IMG/VR virus record: IMGVR_UViG_3300025141_000137
Location: 1 to 52,742 of that record
Length of the DNA: 52,742 nucleotides
Source of the DNA: a virus
Strand: one strand, 5' to 3'
Within the stretch, counting starts at the first letter, position 1; each line of letters starts with the position of its first letter. The notes beneath the pieces are model-generated. The model was not told where the DNA came from, made no database searches, and was given only the letters and a program-made list of their open reading frames with translations. A program made the position numbers and the translations under genes. This document shows positions 5,977-43,456 of the stretch, piece by piece.

Positions 5977-8900
5977 TCACTTCACATCAGGAGGCAACGG
6001 GTAGCGTCTCTCTTCTGGGAGCCGAGTGTGCTCAGGAGCCAGTTCTTCTCGGTGGGGAGAGCGGGACATTTTCTCTGCGAGAGCCTTTAGCTCGTACTCA
6101 GCCTGCTTGGGCGCGTCGTAGTGGTACTCCGCCCCGAAGCGCGTGTAGTAGCGGAAAGCGTATTCCCAAGCTGCCCTATTCTTGGGGACATACGTCAGAG
6201 GATTCAACAGCGAACCGCCGGACTCCATGTAGGGGTTGGTAGCAACGCCCCCCGCCAAGTAGGGCGCCTGGGTTCCGAGGACCGGAACGGTCCTCATCAT
6301 CAGGTGTGCCCAGACCGGGATCTTCATCTTCCCGGTGTCCTCGTCGGGAATCATCAGCGCTCGGCTTTTCTCGAACCGGCCCAGGATGCGCTCTTCTGCG
6401 GGCGTGAGCGTCCGGTAGTCGCTCCGGTTGGAGTAGGAGAGCGCAAGGCCCATTCGGTCACCTACCCACCTGAATGCCATCTCAAGCGGTGGGAAAGTCA
6501 TCCCGAGGAGGGGCTCAAAAGCCATGGCATCCATCTCGTCCGGACGCTCGGAGGGGTCTCTCCAAGGCGCGGCCTTCTCATACGCCCAGGTCATCAACGT
6601 GAGCCCAGCGTTTGCCATGGCAAAGCTGTCGAGCATCGTGAAGGGCGGAAGGATGTAGGCAGTATGCGTGGCCTCTTTACCCAGGTTGTCCCTGAGCCAC
6701 TGGCGCTTGGCAGTGGAGGCCCCCGCTGCTCCAAGGATTGCCCGTGAGTCCATCCACCGTGGGTACATCCGCTTGTAAAGCTCGTCCATCTGCTCGGCGT
6801 GCCCGATGGCCTCGTCAGGGTCTCCCCCAAAGAACAAGTCGGGCAGTCCGCTGGTGATGGCAACCTGCTGTCGGGCACGGGCCAACCGGGTGCGTCCTGT
6901 CAGCGCCCGTGCCATGTACTCACCCGCAGGCCGAGTGAAGGGTTCAATGGCCGCGCCAGTTGCCTGCTTCATGGCCAGTCGCCAGAAGCGGTAGAAGGGG
7001 ATCATGCGGACGATCCAGAGGTCCATCTCCTTCCGAGCCAAGCCATGTTTCCAGTCGTACAGAGCGCTGAGGGTGCGCTTCTTGGCTTCTGCCCGGGTTG
7101 CTCCCCGCTGGATGAGGTCCAGGTAGAACGCCGAACGCTGACGTTGCTGCACGATGGAAGCCTGTTCACTCAGGCTTCGCTGCCAGCCCTTGGCCTTCTT
7201 GAAGGTTTCCATGAAGGGGCTGTTGACGAGCCTCGAACTTGTGAGGTACTTCAGGACCTCCTCATGCACAAAGGTGTCGAGGATCCCATCGTCAGTGAGC
7301 CACTTCCGCGCTTCAGAGAACTGCGTGACTCTGTTGCCCTTGCTGACAAAGAAGCCATCTTCTCCTCGGAAGAACCTACCCAGCGCTGGGTTGAAGAAAA
7401 CCTCCGTGACGGAGGGGAGCCCCGCTTTTCGCCCGGCTTTGTCGAGCCCCTCTGCCGCGTTGAGCAGAACCTCTTGGAAACGGCGGCCCGGAGCCCCAAA
7501 GTTCGTCAGGACGTTCTGGAAAGAGAGCAGGCCCGAGCGTGCAACCCCAACCTCTGCCCACATCTGAGAGAAGTCTCCAACAATGTTGTTGGTCCAATAG
7601 CGGACGTTGGGGACGGCTACCCCGGTGATGGTCGAGACCTTCCAGGCAGAGATGAGTTCGCTAGTGAAGTCGATACCCAAGACGGGCTGGTCAGTTGGGA
7701 GCCGAGCGAGAGCCGTCAAGTCCTTGACGTAGCCTCGATACGACTCCTCCACGGCATCCATGAGTGCCTTTGGGACGATGACGTTCTCTCCAATCTCAAC
7801 GAGCTTCCTCTGAATCTTTTGGCCATTCTGCACGATTCGATGCACGTCTTCCGTGAAGGGCAGCCCCATCTTGACGGAAGCTCTGGCAGCGGCCTCCAGC
7901 CCCTCCGAGCCCAGATGAGTCGTCTCTCCTGAGAGGACACGGTTCAACTGACGCCCCTCGTCCATGGTGATCAAACCACCCGCCATCTGCTTCACATGCG
8001 TGCCGAGCCGGTCGTGGGCTACGCCAGCAAGGACCGCCATGGCGCTCTTTCGGACCCCATCCTCGTCGCTCGCAACATCTCCGAAGACGGCCAGCGTCCT
8101 CTTCTTCATCTCCATCGTGAAGTCGTCAAACGTGCCCTCGCCCTTCTTGATGAGGTCTATGGCAAAGCTACGGAGGAGAGCCTCGCTTCTGGGGGCGGCC
8201 TTAGTTCCGGTAGCCACCCAGGCATACCCCAGGGTCTTGATCATCAAGTTGACTTCCCCAAGCCCACTCAGAGCGTGGACCAAGCCCTCATCTGTAAGGT
8301 CGCCAACCAGCTTCTCTATGGAGGCAATATCGACAAGCCCCTCCTCTGCCACGGCATTCTGGACTTGCTTCAGCGCACCCTCCCGCTTCGTGGTTGCTCG
8401 GAAGAGGAAATCTGCTACCTCCGCTGGATCTCGGTAGCTGGCAGAGGCGATCCCCCGCAGGCCCGCATCCCAGACGAGTTCCCCCTTGAGGAGAACCTGG
8501 AGGAGAGACTTCCCCTCCTTGAGTGAAATCTCGGTGAGGGGCTTGTCGATGTAGTCGCGGAGGACTTGGAGGGGGTTTTTTGCCCGGGAGGTCACCTCAA
8601 AGACTTCCTTCTGGGCCAAGTCGAGGGTGTTCTCGAAGAGCCGAAGCCCATCTGCCATACCCTCACCGACCGCTCCTACATTTGCCTCGACGTAGTCCGT
8701 CTTCCGACGGAGTTGTTTGATGTAAGCCCCAACCTTTTGGAGGCGGTCTCCACGGCTGGCAACTCCCAAGTCCTGCCAAGACCCCCAGATCATGGCTCCG
8801 ACGACCCGAGTGGCCTCGGTCGCCCGTTTTGTCTCGATCACCATCACGGTGTTGCTGATGATGTCCTGGATCTGTGCAGCTTGAGCCTTGGTCAGATCCT

Positions 8901-37180: not shown

Positions 37181-37486
37181 ATGAGCGTTACGCTCACTGG
37201 CTGGGTCGACGCTGAAGAGCGTGGCCCTGAGCCGGGCTCACGAGAATGTGAAGTAGAAGTCGAGTGGCCTGAGATTTTCGAGGCACTCAGGAACTGCCCG
37301 GATGATGTCATCCAGCAGGATGAGAGCGGAGACATCTCCCACTTCATCATCAGGGCCAGCCCTGACCCCTTGATTGCACTGCGAAACCTGCTGAACAGCA
37401 GTCTCACAGGAGCCGAGAGGCTCACTCTCCTCGATGACATCGAGGCCCTGGTACAGGCGTGGACGCTCCACACTGAGGAGGCATAG
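37181..37486 (+). CDS. Hypothetical acidic protein (101 aa)
   Basis: ATG at 37181 behind CAGGAGAC; a longer frame from 37094 lies across the hairpins. Acidic product: strand-rich first half (SVTLTGWVDAEERG, then ECEVEVEWPEIFEAL) and helices at the end (ERLTLLDDIEALVQAWTL). It ends HTEEA; the following junction (GAGGAGGCATAGGAAATGG) is nearly repeated after the next two genes. Function unknown. Confidence 0.55.
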   Translation: MSVTLTGWVDAEERGPEPGSRECEVEVEWPEIFEALRNCPDDVIQQDESGDISHFIIRASPDPLIALRNLLNSSLTGAERLTLLDDIEALVQAWTLHTEEA

Positions 37487-37489
37487 GAA

Positions 37490-37879
37490 ATGGCCTGTTT
37501 CACCATAATGGTAGAGAACCTCGACCATACCTATTCTCACTCGTATGTGGAGAAGGACGGCTCAGTCTCAAGAACACTGGTCAAGCCCCACCACTCCCAC
37601 CCCTACTCCCACGCTGTTCTCGTGGACTTTCATACTGCCAGTGAGGGGCAGAAGATCAACGCTCTCCTCCTGGCTCGTGAGTTTCCTGAGATCAGCTTTG
37701 AGACAAGCCCACTTGTCCTCTCCAAGGACGATCTGGAGACCCTGCTTGGGGCTCTCGATATGGCAGAGGATCACTACAACGAGCCCCAGCTCAGGGCTAA
37801 CAACCGATCACTGTTGCGTAGCATCGCCCACGTTCGGCAGGTGCTGGAGAAGAGACAACCTAACACTGAGGAGGATTAG
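37490..37879 (+). CDS. Hypothetical protein (129 aa)
   Basis: Starts 3 bases after the previous stop, with GAGGAGG before the stop serving as ribosome site. The N-terminal part is histidine-rich and beta-like (LDHTYSHSYVEKDGSVSRT, then HHSHPYSHAVLVDF). The C-terminal half is helical (SKDDLETLLGALDMAEDHY, then SLLRSIAHVRQVLEKRQ). It ends NTEED. Function unknown. Confidence 0.55.
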   Translation: MACFTIMVENLDHTYSHSYVEKDGSVSRTLVKPHHSHPYSHAVLVDFHTASEGQKINALLLAREFPEISFETSPLVLSKDDLETLLGALDMAEDHYNEPQLRANNRSLLRSIAHVRQVLEKRQPNTEED

Positions 37880-37882
37880 GAA

Positions 37883-38146
37883 ATGGATAGCAGACTGAAA
37901 CTCTTTACCGCAAGAGTAATCGCCAGGGAAACGGGTTGTCCGTTGTGGGCCTCGGCGGTGGACTTCAGGAGAACTCTGAGCCACATCGCCTTTATCCCAA
38001 GCAAGGGAGTCCCCACAGTTGCCCTTAGTGAGAGACCCTGGTGCTATTACAACCCGGATTTCGCCGCCTCGGCAACCATTAGAGAACTCGTTGGGCTCCT
38101 AACCCATGAGGCCCTGCACATTGTAGCGGCTCGCAAGGAGGATTAG
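37883..38146 (+). CDS. Stand-alone metallopeptidase-like domain with HEALH motif (87 aa)
   Basis: The end contains LLTHEALHIVAARKED, a canonical HExxH zinc motif. The order RxxxxxxxP, then WCYYNPDF, then IRELVGLLTHE parallels the N-terminal part of the 478-aa VWA protein at 41035 (WRVYYDPECW, then AAMLAHEVYGH). It looks like a separate copy of the metallopeptidase-like domain of DUF2201-type proteins, without the von Willebrand part. It may bind or replace that domain in the MoxR-linked complex. The similarity is read by eye. Confidence 0.5.
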   Translation: MDSRLKLFTARVIARETGCPLWASAVDFRRTLSHIAFIPSKGVPTVALSERPWCYYNPDFAASATIRELVGLLTHEALHIVAARKED

Positions 38147-38149
38147 GAA

Positions 38150-38380
38150 ATGGCACAGCACAAGCGGAAAGGCCCCAAGTCCACGAGAGATGGCTGTCTC
38201 CTTTGCAAGCCCCACAAGCGGCAAGGAGTAGACAGCCCCAAGCGACAGGAGATCCGGGCTCGGATCTCTGAGAGAGAGCAGCGTCAACGTGCGGCGAGGC
38301 TCTACCTCGGAGCACTTGGGGCTCAGGAAATAGGCTGGAACTCTTACTACCTGAAGTCTGAGGAGGACGAGGGAGAATAG
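38150..38380 (+). CDS. Hypothetical protein with CLLCKPHK motif (76 aa)
   Basis: The gene follows the same GAGGATTAGGAAATGG-type junction. The N-terminus is basic with a CxxC-type element (DGCLLCKPHKRQG), as in a family of small bacterial and phage proteins of unknown role. A charged helix (QEIRARISEREQRQRAARLY) and an acidic end follow. Possible zinc or nucleic acid binding. Confidence 0.5.
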   Translation: MAQHKRKGPKSTRDGCLLCKPHKRQGVDSPKRQEIRARISEREQRQRAARLYLGALGAQEIGWNSYYLKSEEDEGE

Positions 38381-38398
38381 CTGCCAGTGGCAGACGGT

Positions 38399-38446
38399 GG
38401 GAGACAGGGCCCTGGCCAGGATCGGCCAGGATTTACCCTGTCTCCT
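38399..38446 (+). other. Long nested stem-loop before the 105-aa gene
   Basis: GGAGACAGGG (38400-38409) pairs with CCCTGTCTCC (38436-38445), and inside it CCTGGCC (38411-38417) pairs with GGCCAGG (38424-38430). A second short GTACC/GGTAC pair follows before the ribosome site. No T-run is present. Confidence 0.6.
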
Positions 38447-38486
38447 CCCCGTGTACCACTGTTCGGTACTTTTCAAGGAGACTGAC

Positions 38487-38804
38487 ATGACGAATCGAGA
38501 ACTTGTGAGGGCCTGGGCTGAGGGCCGTGTAAACATGAACGGAGGAAACCTCTCTGTAGATGGAGAGGGTAGCCTGTGGTCCTACGATCTGGAGATCGGA
38601 CGGCGACAGGGCCAGAAGCTCATCGTGTATGACTACCGTGCGCCGATGACCGTCTCTCATACTACAACCTGTCATGTTGGACTGGCGGTCACTGCCGCTG
38701 TCCTCGCACACGAGGCACACGGTATCAGCTACGCTGTAGAGCACCCCTCGTTTGACGAGGTAGCCCTGGCACGGGCCTACTTTGTAGGCGGAGGGCGAGG
38801 ATAG
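38487..38804 (+). CDS. Hypothetical protein with SHTTTCH motif (105 aa)
   Basis: ATG at 38487 behind AAGGAGACTGAC, a leader repeated exactly before the gene at 40250. Beta-rich core: GNLSVDGEGSLWSYDLEIG, then KLIVYDYRAPMTVSH and TTTCHVGLAV. Many small phage proteins of unknown role share a similar L-S-Y plus TTxxH pattern. The HEAHG further on does not fit HExxH. Function unknown. Confidence 0.55.
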   Translation: MTNRELVRAWAEGRVNMNGGNLSVDGEGSLWSYDLEIGRRQGQKLIVYDYRAPMTVSHTTTCHVGLAVTAAVLAHEAHGISYAVEHPSFDEVALARAYFVGGGRG

Positions 38805-38857
38805 CACCGAGACTTCAGCCCCTCGCCCCTGTGGCTTGGGGTTGTGGCCTCAGTGCT
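38803..38857 (+). other. Stem-loop before the MoxR gene
   Basis: AGCAC-c-GAG (38803-38811) pairs with CTC-a-GTGCT (38849-38857), enclosing a CCCC/GGGG stem. It starts at the stop codon of the previous gene and lies 37 bases before the MoxR start. Confidence 0.5.
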
Positions 38858-38893
38858 GTTCCAGTCCTGAGGATTCCCCAACGGAGACAACCA

Positions 38894-40168
38894 ATGACTA
38901 CGTCCACCCTTCCTATGGCTACTCTCTCTGAGAGTGGTCCCATTGAGAGTAATCTCACCGCTCAAGAGCTTGCCGTAGCCACTGCGCTAATGGCAAACCT
39001 CCCTCCCCTGCTTGTGGGGCGTCCTGGTACCGGGAAGTCTACCTTTATGGCGGCCCTTGTCCAGGCTCTCCAGTACAGGGGACACACCTGGATTCTGACG
39101 CAGATGGACCCCACTGTAATCGGTGGGCTCCCCTACAAGACGACTGTGGAGATGTTCGGGCAGATGCGAGAGGTCGTCAAGCGAGCGCCCCATATCTCCT
39201 TTGTGGCGACGGCCCTGGACACGGAGAATACCTACGTCCATGGCTTTGATGAGTTCAGCAACGCTACCCCTGCTCAGCGGTCAGCATTCCTGGACCTCGT
39301 GACTCGGCGCTACGCTGGGGACTTGCCCCTGCCTGAGAGCACACGATTCTGGGCAGGGATGAACCCTGCTAACTGCGCTGTTGTGTACCATCCTCTCCAG
39401 TGTCCTACCGCTACACGGTGGGTCTGGATTGACTGGGAGCCTGCCTACAATCGGGAAAGCTGGCGGCGTGGAATGCTGGAGGGCTGGCCTGAGCCCAAGG
39501 TGCCGCGTCTCTCTGAGAACTGGCAGGATCTCATTCCCATGTCACGCGCTATGCTCGTGGGCTTTGAGAAGCGAGACCCTACCGTGTTCCACGAGGGGTT
39601 TGTGCTGACAGAGGACGGACTCCACTGCCCTGAGCCTGCAAAGCTGGTGGACTGTCCTACCAGCAACGGGCGTACCCTGGAGATGGCGGCTGTGGCATAT
39701 GCTGCAACGCTGGGGCTGGCAGGGAGTGGCCTGGCCGAGGCTGACATTGAGGCTGTCCGGTCCCTGCTAATCAAGGGCATTCTGGGAGAGGCGACAGGCC
39801 GTGCGCTCGTGGAATACTTTGATGTGGCGAATGAGATCCCCTCTCCTGAGGAGATTCTCGCTGACCCCACTGGCTACGATGTCCAGGGCCTCCGTCCTGA
39901 CCTCCAGTTCTTGATGATCTCCTCCGTCGGTGCCTATGTCCGTGGTCTCGTGGTCAACAAGCGAGACTCCAGCGCTGACGCCTGGGCACGGGCTCTCCGG
40001 TTCGTGCAGCACGTTGATTCTCAGGGTGCTGGGGATCTCGCTATGGTGTGTGCCAGCCTGTTCATAGCTAAAGCGGTCGGTATTCCGACAGGAGCTAAGG
40101 CTCCCAAGGGTACGCTGGCTGTACTGCTGCCCGTCTTGAATGAACTAAAGAGTATCGCTGCTAAGTAG
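38894..40168 (+). CDS. MoxR-type AAA+ ATPase (424 aa)
   Basis: ATG at 38894 behind ACGGAGAC. A Walker A motif GRPGTGKST (about residues 42-50), Walker B-type HGFDEFSNATPAQRSAFLDL and a sensor-type FWAGMNP are all in the expected order for MoxR/AAA_5 ATPases. These act as chaperones together with a von Willebrand A protein, here encoded two genes downstream. The helical C-terminal half is typical for the lid and extension. The pair could remodel a host or phage complex during infection. Confidence 0.75.
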   Translation: MTTSTLPMATLSESGPIESNLTAQELAVATALMANLPPLLVGRPGTGKSTFMAALVQALQYRGHTWILTQMDPTVIGGLPYKTTVEMFGQMREVVKRAPHISFVATALDTENTYVHGFDEFSNATPAQRSAFLDLVTRRYAGDLPLPESTRFWAGMNPANCAVVYHPLQCPTATRWVWIDWEPAYNRESWRRGMLEGWPEPKVPRLSENWQDLIPMSRAMLVGFEKRDPTVFHEGFVLTEDGLHCPEPAKLVDCPTSNGRTLEMAAVAYAATLGLAGSGLAEADIEAVRSLLIKGILGEATGRALVEYFDVANEIPSPEEILADPTGYDVQGLRPDLQFLMISSVGAYVRGLVVNKRDSSADAWARALRFVQHVDSQGAGDLAMVCASLFIAKAVGIPTGAKAPKGTLAVLLPVLNELKSIAAK

Positions 40169-40179
40169 GAGTCCGGTCA

Positions 40180-40221
40180 GACACTGAGACGTCTCACCCA
40201 GGTGTGGGACGTCTCCGTGTC
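40180..40221 (+). other. Nested stem-loop before the 260-aa gene
   Basis: GACAC-t-GAGACGTC (40180-40193) pairs with GACGTCTC-c-GTGTC (40208-40221), with inner CACC/GGTG pairing. The GGAGAC ribosome site and ATG at 40250 follow. The 19 bases TTTCAAGGAGACTGACATG match the leader at 38487. Confidence 0.6.
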
Positions 40222-40249
40222 CGATTCCGGGCATTTCAAGGAGACTGAC

Positions 40250-41032
40250 ATGGGACAGAAGGAGACTGCTGCGTTCTTCCTCTCTGTGAGGGTGCAATGC
40301 GGTGGAGCACTACACAAAATAGGAATCACAACCAAGGGACATTTCGTCATGTGTGAGCATGACATGGAGGAGTTCAAGGTCATGGCGGAGTTCCTCGGAG
40401 ACGGGGACCGCCAGTACAAGGGCGGTAAGAAGGGCGGTGTCCGAGACATCCGTTGCTTCTACGTCCTGGCCCAGTGGAGAGAGTTCTTCAACAGGCGCCA
40501 TGCCTACGAAAAGACTCATTTCCACCAGACCCCGGCTGATCTGCGACCTTTTATGAAGATCGCTGTGGATATCGGCAGTAGGCGTAGGAGGGCTAACAAC
40601 GCCCGCTACGGGGAGGGCCCACAGTGGAAACAGGCCATTACGAGCACGCACATCAAGGCGCATGATCGCCTCACGGATATCCGAAAGCGCAGCCCTATCG
40701 TCAATGAGAGCGGCTACGTTCTCTCCAGCAGGATGACATCGTGCGAGCACCTCCATGGTACGTGGATACGTGCCTCCTTCCGTAGACGGAAGGGTGTGGG
40801 GTACCTCACATACGACCCTGACTTTACCCCCCACGAGGGTCTCCTCACCGGGTACAGGGTCTCCGTCACTGACACCTCCCCCATTGGACGTATCTGTACC
40901 AAGGAAGGGAGGCTGGCTCACCCAGGATTTTCCTGGGATCCGCCCCCTGCGCTGGGCTTTCGCAACGTGTCGGCTATGCGGCACAACTCACCCTGGGCTC
41001 TCGCTGAGAGACCCCTCACCCCTGGAGAATAG
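40250..41032 (+). CDS. Hypothetical protein between MoxR and VWA genes (260 aa)
   Basis: ATG at 40250 behind AAGGAGAC. The N-terminal part is beta-rich (AAFFLSVRVQCGGALHKIGI, then GHFVMCEHDMEEFKVMAE), followed by a basic helical part (KIAVDIGSRRRRANNARYG) and a proline-rich end. It lies between the two halves of the MoxR-VWA pair, so it may be a third component or a target. No family recognised. Confidence 0.5.
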   Translation: MGQKETAAFFLSVRVQCGGALHKIGITTKGHFVMCEHDMEEFKVMAEFLGDGDRQYKGGKKGGVRDIRCFYVLAQWREFFNRRHAYEKTHFHQTPADLRPFMKIAVDIGSRRRRANNARYGEGPQWKQAITSTHIKAHDRLTDIRKRSPIVNESGYVLSSRMTSCEHLHGTWIRASFRRRKGVGYLTYDPDFTPHEGLLTGYRVSVTDTSPIGRICTKEGRLAHPGFSWDPPPALGFRNVSAMRHNSPWALAERPLTPGE

Positions 41033-41034
41033 CC

Positions 41035-42471
41035 ATGTTTGTAGCACCCAACTCTGGGCCAGCCCGCCCTGGCGAGAGCGCCGTCCAGAAAGACCTCCGA
41101 GAACTGCAGGAGCAGATCATGCTGCTGCTGACAAGCGAGGAGTGGGAAGAGGAGGGCCGGCGTAACTTCATGTTTGCCAGGGCCTTCCTTATGAGGAAGT
41201 TCCCATTCACGGGGCGTGCCCTCTCCGCCGTGACTCCTGTGCAGGCCAAGGGCCTGCTGGCTCTGGGAGGCATGGCCTGTGACAAGAACTGGCGTGTGTA
41301 CTACGACCCTGAGTGCTGGCTGAAATACACCAAGATTGAGTGTGCAGCGATGCTTGCTCACGAGGTCTACGGACACCTCCTCGGACGGCACTTCCAACGT
41401 GCCCAGGCTCACCTGGGGTACATGCCTGAGGCTGGAGAACCCCTGCCGCCTCACCTCAAGAAGCAGGCTGAGAAGATCAACCGCGCTCAGGACCTCGCAA
41501 TCCACGGGCTTGAGAGTTGGATACGGGACAACATTCCCAAGGACTCCCTGTTTCCTGAGAAGTATGGGCTCCCCCTGGGGAAGGCCTGGGAGTGGTACTA
41601 CGCCAACCTGCCTGACGATGAGGAGGGCGGCTCTGGTAAGGATCCCGGTGAGGATCCCGGTAAGAATCTGGGCGGTCAGCCTGGAGCCCCGAGCAAGGGA
41701 GGGCCGGGCAAGGAGCGCTGCTGTGGCGGTGGCTCTGGTGCTGGTAATCCTCGGCCCTGGGAGCTCCCTGAGCCTGGGAAGGGCCAGGGTAAGCACGATG
41801 TCCCTGGATTGAACGAGCAACAGGGAGAGCAGGTCCGTCAGGGTACTGCCCAGGATATCAAGGAAGCTCAGAAGGGCGGCAGGCTGCGAGGCTCAGGCTA
41901 CGGAGGCTGGATTGCATGGGCTGACAAGCAGTTGGCTCCTGCTCAGACCCCCTGGCAGACCCTTGCTGCTACCGTCATTCGTCAGCAGCGGATCAAGATC
42001 GGTGCTGATGACTACTCCTGGCAACGTCCCTCTCCTCTCTCCTGGAGCCTGGACGGCATCATCCTCCCCTCTCTCGTCTCGTTTGAATGGACGGCTTCTG
42101 TCGTCCTGGACCAGTCAGGGTCTATGACTGACGATGACGTGGTAGAGAGCCTCTCTGAGGTAGAGGGTCTCGTCCGACAGTGTGGCGCCAAGTGCAATGT
42201 CTACGTCGCCACTGACGGAGTGAATGAGGCTCACCGAGACCTGTCCTCTATGCGGACGCTGCTGGGTAAGCGCCACGGTGGCGGGACGGATCTCCGGCCT
42301 GCCATTGAGGCTGCTGCAAAGGATGACTGTGATCTGCTCGTGGTATGCACGGATGGCTACACGCCATGGCCTGACAAGGCCCCCACTGTGCCCGTGGTTG
42401 TGCTGCTCTTTGGCAATAACTGTGGCAAGGGCCGAGTGCCCTCCTGGGCTACCACGCTGATCTGTGACTGA
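41035..42471 (+). CDS. Metallopeptidase-like/VWA protein, MoxR partner (DUF2201-like), 478 aa
   Basis: The N-terminal domain has the expected helix MLAHEVYGHLLGRH at about residues 106-119, but the spacing is HExxxH (HEVYGH) rather than HExxH. A Gly/Pro-rich linker spans about 190-260. The C-terminal von Willebrand A domain shows the metal-site residues VVLDQSGSM, then GGGTDL and VVCTDGYTPW. Such proteins work with MoxR ATPases as substrate adaptors. The second, canonical HEALH protein at 37883 may supply peptidase activity if this copy is inactive. Confidence 0.7.
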   Translation: MFVAPNSGPARPGESAVQKDLRELQEQIMLLLTSEEWEEEGRRNFMFARAFLMRKFPFTGRALSAVTPVQAKGLLALGGMACDKNWRVYYDPECWLKYTKIECAAMLAHEVYGHLLGRHFQRAQAHLGYMPEAGEPLPPHLKKQAEKINRAQDLAIHGLESWIRDNIPKDSLFPEKYGLPLGKAWEWYYANLPDDEEGGSGKDPGEDPGKNLGGQPGAPSKGGPGKERCCGGGSGAGNPRPWELPEPGKGQGKHDVPGLNEQQGEQVRQGTAQDIKEAQKGGRLRGSGYGGWIAWADKQLAPAQTPWQTLAATVIRQQRIKIGADDYSWQRPSPLSWSLDGIILPSLVSFEWTASVVLDQSGSMTDDDVVESLSEVEGLVRQCGAKCNVYVATDGVNEAHRDLSSMRTLLGKRHGGGTDLRPAIEAAAKDDCDLLVVCTDGYTPWPDKAPTVPVVVLLFGNNCGKGRVPSWATTLICD

Positions 42472-42625: not shown

Positions 42626-43456
42626 ATGAATCTTGAAAAGAACACGCTCCGTGTCAACGGTGTCGTGACCTACTGGTCCCTGTCTGAGGGGCTGTCCCTG
42701 GACTCGCTGCGGGACAACTGTCCTGACTGGTTCAATAAAATGCTGCCTGAGGAGACGGCTCCGCTGGGAGCCCTCAAGCGTGTGCTGACACGGCGCATTC
42801 AGGGCAAGGCGGGTCTCTACCTGCGCCCTGTGGCCCGGGATGGCTATGCCATCATGCAAGAGCACGAGGCTGCTGGGAAAAAGGCTGCGACCGAGCGTGG
42901 TCGTATGCTGCTGCTCCCGCTCCCTGACGGAGGTGTGGGCCTTGCCATGACTCCCTTCCACGAGGGAGTCTTTGCTGATCTCGTGAAGCAGTGGCAGCAG
43001 GAGCGTCGGCGTATCACCGCCAGCGCTCTCGGCACCGCGCTCTCTCGCGCTGTCTTATCTGCCCGGGTGAAGGGCGTGTCCCTACGTCCGTCGGGAGGTA
43101 TCTACTGGGTGAGCGACAATAGCTGTCCCGAGTGGGAGGCCCTCGCTACTGGCATCGAGACCTCTGGCCCTGCGTCTGTCTACCGTATGGGCGTGGCCCA
43201 TGACGCTGAGAGCGTGCGAGCCATCTGCGATAATCTCACGGCTCACGTCGAGAAGGAGATGGAGCAGGTGAATGAGGCTCTCACTGGAGGAGACCTGGGT
43301 AAGCGTGGCCAGAAGACACAGAAGCGTCGGGCCCGCTCCCTGGAGGAGTTGGTCTCTCACGTCGAGGAGACGCTGGAGATCACGCTGCTGGGCCTGCGCC
43401 AGAAGACCACCGAGATTGCCGATGTGGCTGTCCTGGAGACTTTCCTGGAGGGGTGA
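42626..43456 (+). CDS. Hypothetical protein (276 aa), linked to the MoxR module
   Basis: ATG at 42626 behind GGAGAGCC. Mixed alpha/beta N-terminal half (NGVVTYWSLSEGLSLDSLR, then AGLYLRPVARDGYAIM) and a helical, basic C-terminus (GKRGQKTQKRRARSLEELV, then VEETLEITLLGLRQK). It resembles by feel a group of uncharacterised phage proteins (possibly DUF6744-like), but I am not sure. The stop overlaps the next start. Confidence 0.5.
   Translation: MNLEKNTLRVNGVVTYWSLSEGLSLDSLRDNCPDWFNKMLPEETAPLGALKRVLTRRIQGKAGLYLRPVARDGYAIMQEHEAAGKKAATERGRMLLLPLPDGGVGLAMTPFHEGVFADLVKQWQQERRRITASALGTALSRAVLSARVKGVSLRPSGGIYWVSDNSCPEWEALATGIETSGPASVYRMGVAHDAESVRAICDNLTAHVEKEMEQVNEALTGGDLGKRGQKTQKRRARSLEELVSHVEETLEITLLGLRQKTTEIADVAVLETFLEG

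Follow-up and report, generated by a model that had tools for sequence, protein, structure and literature searches.

Does a change of spacing in the zinc motif of a phage metallopeptidase-like domain mean that the domain is inactive, and that a small neighbouring protein has taken over its activity? This question is raised by a gene cluster in the 52,742-base virus record IMGVR_UViG_3300025141_000137 (hereafter the window, the whole stretch of DNA that was analysed), in which a MoxR-like ATPase and a VWA protein are encoded together with a protein of 87 amino acids (aa). An initial annotation had suggested split roles, with an inactive HExxxH domain in the VWA protein as adaptor and the 87-aa protein as its active partner. 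In our analysis, the best explanation of the locus as a whole is a MoxR-VWA remodelling module with an HExxxH insertion variant and a truncated 87-aa copy, to which we assign a probability of roughly 0.55. The features concerned are:

37883 to 38146, plus strand: 87-aa gene, truncated DUF2201_N-like domain (open reading frame (ORF), phrog_1314 match); HEALH at 38105-38119.
38894 to 40168, plus strand: MoxR-like AAA+ ATPase of the N4 gp24 type (phrog_1297 'ATPase', E 9.4e-25).
41035 to 42471, plus strand: DUF2201_N and VWA protein of the N4 gp25 type, 478 aa (PF13203, PF09967).
41359 to 41376, plus strand: HEVYGH (HExxxH) codons, inserted residue at Tyr112/Gly113 (alignments).
41491 to 41493, plus strand: Asp153, candidate third metal ligand (91/91 in the viral and phage sample).
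42109 to 42123, plus strand: metal ion-dependent adhesion site (MIDAS) DQSGS (D359-S363) of the VWA domain (alignment conservation).

The VWA protein matched PF13203 (DUF2201_N; E 1.9e-16, 60.9 bits against a gathering score of 23.2), PF09967 (VWA; E 1.8e-13, 51.2 bits against 26.4) and phrog_1314 (E 4.1e-32). Its MIDAS pattern DxSxS...T...D is present, with D359, S361, S363, T418 and D440 conserved. The AlphaFold model of the protein had a mean predicted local distance difference test score (pLDDT) of 75.7, with zinc-domain blocks mostly at 84-94. Fold comparison with the PDB recovered the VWA fold (Z up to 14.6), the rows for the whole model covering the C-terminal half (the VWA part) only, and the top Foldseek rows were VWA domains, with NorQD at rank 6 (E 2.2e-3). 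The ATPase ORF spans 38831-40168, with a likely ATG start at 38894 according to the ribosome-site context. It displays a Walker A motif (GRPGTGKS), a Walker B motif (FDEF), a sensor-1 Asn and two conserved Arg; P44, G47, K48, S49, D119, E120, N157, R175 and R260 were invariant in an alignment of 8 sequences. No Pfam AAA model scored above its own cut-off against this protein. Taken together with the phrog_1297 match of the ATPase, these results confirmed the MoxR-VWA pair recognized by the initial annotation. Annotated relatives with the same pair include LUZ7 ('N4 gp24-like', 'N4 gp25-like'), Presley, nACB1 and N4, and a table of N4-like core genes lists gene 24 as unknown and gene 25 as having a vWFA domain (PMC4193335). 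Based on the family matches and these relatives, the cluster is identified as a predicted N4 gp24/gp25-type MoxR-VWA module and thus as one of a known kind. A single-protein search of the viral collection with the VWA protein gave no close relatives. In INPHARED, tblastn with the same query found nothing at 1e-5 and 68 records at E 10, mostly partial matches among the 40 listed. In a 124-row tree, which included 15 of the 79 bacterial rows L100-L178, the window VWA protein fell in a bacterial-type clade.

Some existing labels for this family deserve comment. The library name of phrog_1314, 'HNH endonuclease', looks wrong; the same label is widely carried by DUF2201-VWA proteins, including those of RefSeq phage records such as N4 gp25, and looks like a propagated misannotation. 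Vibrio phage phi50-12 is said to lack N4 gp24/gp25, which are called rIIA/rIIB-like in the same paper (PMC9525291, available text); its record (L007) holds adjacent ATPase-like and metallopeptidase-VWA genes that align with the family.

The ORF translation confirmed that the zinc motif of the VWA protein reads HEVYGH (context LAHEVYGHLLGRHFQRA) and not HExxH. We compared 186 unique VWA proteins, pooled from viral, phage and bacterial loci after removal of duplicates. HExxHx4[H/D] occurred in 182 of them, ten of which had over-long ORFs that put the motif past residue 260 and were checked separately; three had HxxxH without the Glu, and one, that of the window, had HExxxH. HExxxH is therefore not a normal variant in the family, although the initial annotation had allowed for this; HExxH is the usual form, which the family profile does not require. 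The loci included 80 of 201 confirmed in genome_contigs, mostly from Actinomycetota, which were obtained with two query sequences and patterns outside the zinc helix, and 11 from a further viral scan. The genome_contigs loci, 78 of 80 with a MoxR match as well, typically displayed HEVAHLLRDHHGRA, and the nearest actinobacterial homologues had HEVAHLLRDHHGRA or HEVSHLLRGHFERA compared to HEVYGHLLGRHFQRA in the window. The nearest sibling phage contig, L099 (57 kb, from a Proteobacteria metagenome-assembled genome), encodes the canonical HETWH in its VWA gene at 5983-7428.

We also aligned 91 sequences, namely that of the window, those of 10 phage records and those of 80 viral contigs. These contigs were the best 80 of 177 confirmed and were found through the pattern WNxAxD, the HExxH helix not being a selection criterion. 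The columns of His109, His114, Asn149, Ala151 and Asp153 were invariant, Glu110 was kept in 89 and His119 in 90 of the 91 sequences, and one extra column, that of Gly113, was filled in the window only. In 173 of 185 homologues, a conserved Arg is located at +12 counted from the first His; in the window it is at +13. In the AlphaFold model, a helix at residues 100-115 spans the motif with a local pLDDT of about 90, and Asp153 lies within a helix at 139-159. A single codon inserted between Glu110 and His114 would explain the motif, the shifted Arg and the kept residues by one event.

Does HExxxH then indicate an inactive site? According to the available text of PMC5810440, TldD binds its metal via His262 and His267 of an HExxxH motif, a distortion of the helix absorbing the extra residue; TldD is catalytic together with TldE, and dipeptidyl peptidase III has the identical motif. 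HExxxH is also present in one set of the polyvalent-protein metallopeptidases that occur in phages and plasmids (PMC5512222, available text). Since HExxxH is an active metal site in TldD, inactivity does not follow from the motif. The proposed inactivity of the VWA-protein domain was thus not borne out, all the more as a one-residue insertion keeps the other invariant motif residues. The window gene gained one codon between the Glu and the second His, which turned HExxH into HExxxH and left His114, His119 and Asp153 in place. Because these residues are kept, a metal site on a distorted helix, by analogy to TldD, appears likelier than a dead site.

Loss of function at this site is possible, as Trp148 and Asn157, each conserved in 90 of the 91 sequences, are Ile and His in the window. 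These two changes favour a different reading, in which the VWA protein has lost peptidase activity and acts as a pure adaptor, the 87-aa gene being a relic without a role there. Three homologues (L017, L039 and L164) have the catalytic Glu replaced (HSVMH, HVTMH and HNLNH) with His spacing and the remaining residues kept, which makes them natural candidates for inactive members and indicates that loss of catalysis is tolerated in the family. A dead site, however, would be expected to lose its residues freely, and His109, Glu110, His114, His119 and Asp153 are all kept in the window. We therefore consider a pure adaptor somewhat unlikely.

The second part of the question concerns the 87-aa protein. 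Its ORF contains THEALHIVAARKED followed by the stop codon, with HEALH at residues 75-79. It matched phrog_1314 with residues 28-81 on profile positions 31-83 (E 9e-6) and PF13203 at E 3.8e-4 (20.6 bits, under the gathering score of 23.2), and our own gp25 profile recovered it among 7,238 ORFs (E 8.8e-6). By BLASTP, its likeness to the VWA protein of the window was marginal (28% over 50 residues, E 0.003 for one comparison). These matches bore out its resemblance to the VWA N-terminal domain with HEALH kept, and point to a diverged DUF2201_N homologue, the resemblance being weak but real and beyond chance.

The protein ends 8 residues past HEALH and has neither the conserved second His nor the Asp that is invariant in WNxAxD. 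In a sequence-profile comparison, M48 3c37 (E 6.3e-4) and the minigluzincin MJ1213 (E 8.6e-4) aligned over the strand and HExxH region. MJ1213 is a solved protein of 110 residues with a profile match at residues 32-76, leaving about 34 residues after the motif compared to 8 in the 87-aa protein. MJ1213 and the M48 peptidases are complete domains, whereas the 87-aa protein stops short of the region that lies downstream of their motif. Since the remaining conserved residues are lacking, the 87-aa protein is probably not a peptidase by itself. These data bear directly on the reading in which the VWA-protein domain has lost catalysis and the peptidase would be provided by the 87-aa protein. The small protein does keep HExxH, is a real family homologue and lies in the same gene string, but it lacks the later His and a counterpart of Asp153 and most of the segment after the motif, HExxxH is active elsewhere (PMC5810440, PMC5512222), and no stand-alone match was found with the 87-aa query in the genome bin of L099, where two hits both lay inside full-length VWA proteins. 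We regard this division of labour as very improbable. Of the split-role proposal, the MoxR-VWA pair and the family membership of the 87-aa protein thus stood, while the inactive adaptor domain and the active small partner did not.

How the short gene may have arisen is suggested by its ends, which lie in a repeated element:

37475 to 37493, plus strand: junction repeat copy 1, start of the 129-aa gene.
37868 to 37886, plus strand: junction repeat copy 2, end of the 129-aa gene and start of the 87-aa gene.
38135 to 38153, plus strand: junction repeat copy 3, encoding the KED and stop of the 87-aa protein and starting the 76-aa gene (frame from the ORF coordinates).

This 19-nucleotide (nt) element of stop codon, ribosome site and start codon occurs in 3 copies, compared to 0.01 expected by shuffling. 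The copies are near-identical, stand at consecutive small genes and each also include the stop at which the frame before them ends. For the 87-aa gene, the final codons (AAG GAG GAT TAG) fall within the repeat, and the gene appears to have been truncated, or grafted, at this junction. Because KED and the stop are derived from the repeated junction, the 87-aa protein is suggested to be a truncated stump and not an autonomous peptidase; the gene would represent a second, diverged copy of the front of the domain, cut off within the zinc helix. When all frames of 37300-41030 were searched with profiles for the rest of the gene, frameshifted or as a remnant, none was found, and only the 87-aa ORF scored well. 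A second, different start context is repeated at 38462-38489 and 40225-40252 (28 nt, 86% identical), upstream of the 105-aa and 260-aa genes.

Other short stand-alone homologues were not found in the loci searched with gp25 profiles, except for a VWA fragment of 193 aa located where contig L188 ends; for the 80 bacterial loci, the search used the full-length profile only. With the 87-aa protein as query, the viral collection gave 13 pattern matches, none confirmed, and INPHARED gave 5 records by tblastn at E 1, all partial.

Several points weigh against the reading of an insertion variant with a truncated copy. The role of Asp153 as third ligand rests on conservation in a sample partly chosen by WNxAxD; the conservation of this pattern is therefore partly built in. 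The Arg at +13 is supportive and not absolute, since 12 of 185 homologues share that spacing, and a MAFFT pair alignment with L012 placed the gap after His119, so that the register is not fully forced. In the 124-row tree, the 87-aa domain (74 columns) had a long end branch of 2.13 and no settled place. In addition, the start of the 87-aa gene has a strong ribosome site in a context like that of the neighbouring genes. Because of this site the gene is probably translated, and selection may act on it, as would be expected of a functional gene more than of a relic. If the 87-aa protein is expressed and retained, a role as modulator or binding decoy is more likely for it than an enzymatic one.

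Such a decoy could be directed outward, occupying a client or ring site of the MoxR-DUF2201 complex of the host or of a competing phage. Bacterial MoxR-DUF2201 pairs, as found at the 78 genome_contigs loci, are close homologues of the window VWA protein. The best phmmer match of the 87-aa protein among loci containing DUF6744 was the VWA protein of L098 (E 5.5e-8), placing it nearer to domains of other phages than to its own VWA protein. The unsettled tree placement speaks against this view, which we consider improbable. Quite improbable, too, is a two-part zincin, in which the VWA site was remodelled by insertion convergently with TldD and the 87-aa half-domain, freed by recombination at the repeated junction, acts in trans on the MoxR-DUF2201 complex of the phage itself, its host or a rival as competitor or regulatory subunit.

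For the preferred reading, a remodelling module with a variant zinc helix, the data show the family identity, the insertion with its rarity, the truncation, the junction repeat and the synteny of the partners; metal binding, the mechanism and the role of the 87-aa protein are inferred. A mechanism may be sketched by analogy. In NorQD, a finger of the VWA protein reaches into the pore of the ATPase, and the VWA domain is twisted relative to the N-terminal domain as ATP is turned over (PMC13036017, available text). Likewise, the phage ATPase ring probably takes hold of the VWA domain and rotates it, the N-terminal zincin-like domain would hold, or trim, a client, and movement of the VWA domain against the zincin-like domain would result in remodelling or trimming of this client. 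Candidate partners and the other small genes are:

42626 to 43456, plus strand: 276-aa DUF6744-like protein, recurrent third partner of MoxR-VWA in phages (homologue synteny).
40250 to 41032, plus strand: 260-aa protein with an N-terminal C-x-G-x-x-H...H...C pattern (homologues beside other MoxR-VWA pairs).
38150 to 38380, plus strand: 76-aa gene of unknown function (ORF; no significant Pfam or PHROG match).
38487 to 38804, plus strand: 105-aa gene of unknown function (ORF; no Pfam or PHROG match).

PF20529 was matched by 6 of 8 alignment members of the 276-aa protein (best E 1e-10), the window copy itself not passing 0.01. A scan with this protein, aligned to its L012 homologue, yielded 7 viral loci. 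In 6 of these, genes for MoxR and VWA proteins were present as well, and the seventh (L096) breaks off directly past the DUF6744 gene. Over all loci, a homologue occurred in 12 distinct records besides the window. A dedicated DUF6744 scan of genome_contigs gave 1 unconfirmed pattern match, while the two-sequence VWA scan found DUF6744 there in L099. The model of the 276-aa protein (pLDDT 85) had no PDB match under E 0.05, and a literature search on DUF6744 found no paper. By its synteny, the DUF6744 protein is the recurrent putative third partner, just beyond the genes covered by the initial annotation, and a stronger partner than the 260-aa protein; it would serve as specific partner or client of the module. 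The 260-aa protein probably has a similar role. It matched proteins adjoining the VWA gene in L151 (E 7.7e-7) and L183 (E 6.6e-7), and a similar-looking 297-aa protein occupies its position in L099, although phmmer did not detect the likeness. The suggestion that three genes of the cluster encode further parts or targets was thus supported for the 260-aa protein.

The cluster has the order 129 aa, 87 aa, 76 aa, 105 aa, MoxR-like ATPase, 260 aa, VWA protein and 276 aa, all on the plus strand, on which genes for primase, helicase, exonuclease and methyltransferase follow beyond 44.5 kb. The minus strand encodes a portal protein (phrog_156, E 9e-11), a terminase (phrog_2, E 6e-12) and a capsid protein (phrog_9953, E 3e-6). 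L099 has the order MoxR, 83 aa, 297 aa, VWA, DUF6744, 173 aa, primase and helicase; gene order is the same as in the window, with identities of 31% (VWA), 34% (DUF6744), 42% (primase) and 34% (helicase). Thus, primase and helicase are neighbours in the window and in L099, and L012 has a primase-like gene. A role in virion assembly, proposed for a similar pair in PMC7824862, was considered less likely, since replication genes adjoin the module in the window, in L099 and L012 and in several annotated Schitoviridae; a role in replication or takeover is favoured. We also scanned 20 neighbour proteins from nine DUF6744 loci. Among the 18 outside L099 were a clamp loader, a methyltransferase, an endonuclease-like protein and two integrase/invertase-like proteins; no clear structural protein was found among them, one weak head-closure hit ranking under the endonuclease-like protein. 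Outside close relatives, the argument from replication neighbours is therefore weak.

One VWA protein of another phage contig (L092:9845-12796) contains two intein-like insertions, one within the conserved WNxAxD (Pfam Hint E 3.3e-5, Intein_splicing E 2.3e-4, both under cut-offs).

Modules of this N4 gp24/gp25 type have a wide distribution among phages and are listed as N4-like core genes, while the available text gives no function for them. With a natural one-residue insertion in the zinc helix of this member and none in its siblings, the importance of the metallopeptidase site can readily be tested on natural variants. A concrete candidate for partner or client is the recurrent DUF6744 neighbour, and the junction repeat illustrates on a small scale how stand-alone domain fragments may be produced by phages.

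Among known systems, N4 gp24/gp25 of the Schitoviridae (phrog_1297 / phrog_1314) share the adjoining genes for a MoxR-like ATPase and a DUF2201_N-VWA protein, and the N4-type pair is often located beside helicase and DNA polymerase genes. The fetched N4-type members have HExxH, in contrast to the window with HExxxH, a VWA protein of the bacterial-type clade, and DUF6744 and the 87-aa gene in the cluster. Jumbo phages of group 2.2 encode a MoxR protein and a vWA co-chaperone fused to an N-terminal metallopeptidase, the same architecture as the window pair; the available text mentions no insertion in the zinc helix (PMC7824862). Virion assembly was proposed there, whereas the window module is co-directional with primase and helicase and apart from the minus-strand portal, terminase and capsid genes. 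NorQ-NorD, with an AAA+ ring, a MIDAS-bearing VWA partner and a separate N-terminal domain, is a likely mechanical analogue; it differs in its client, which is a membrane enzyme for NorD, and no zincin domain is mentioned in the available text (PMC13036017). TldD, compared by motif alone, shares HExxxH, which in TldD lies on a distorted helix and holds the metal by both His (PMC5810440, available text). The third ligand is a Cys in TldD and probably Asp153 or His119 in the VWA protein of the window.

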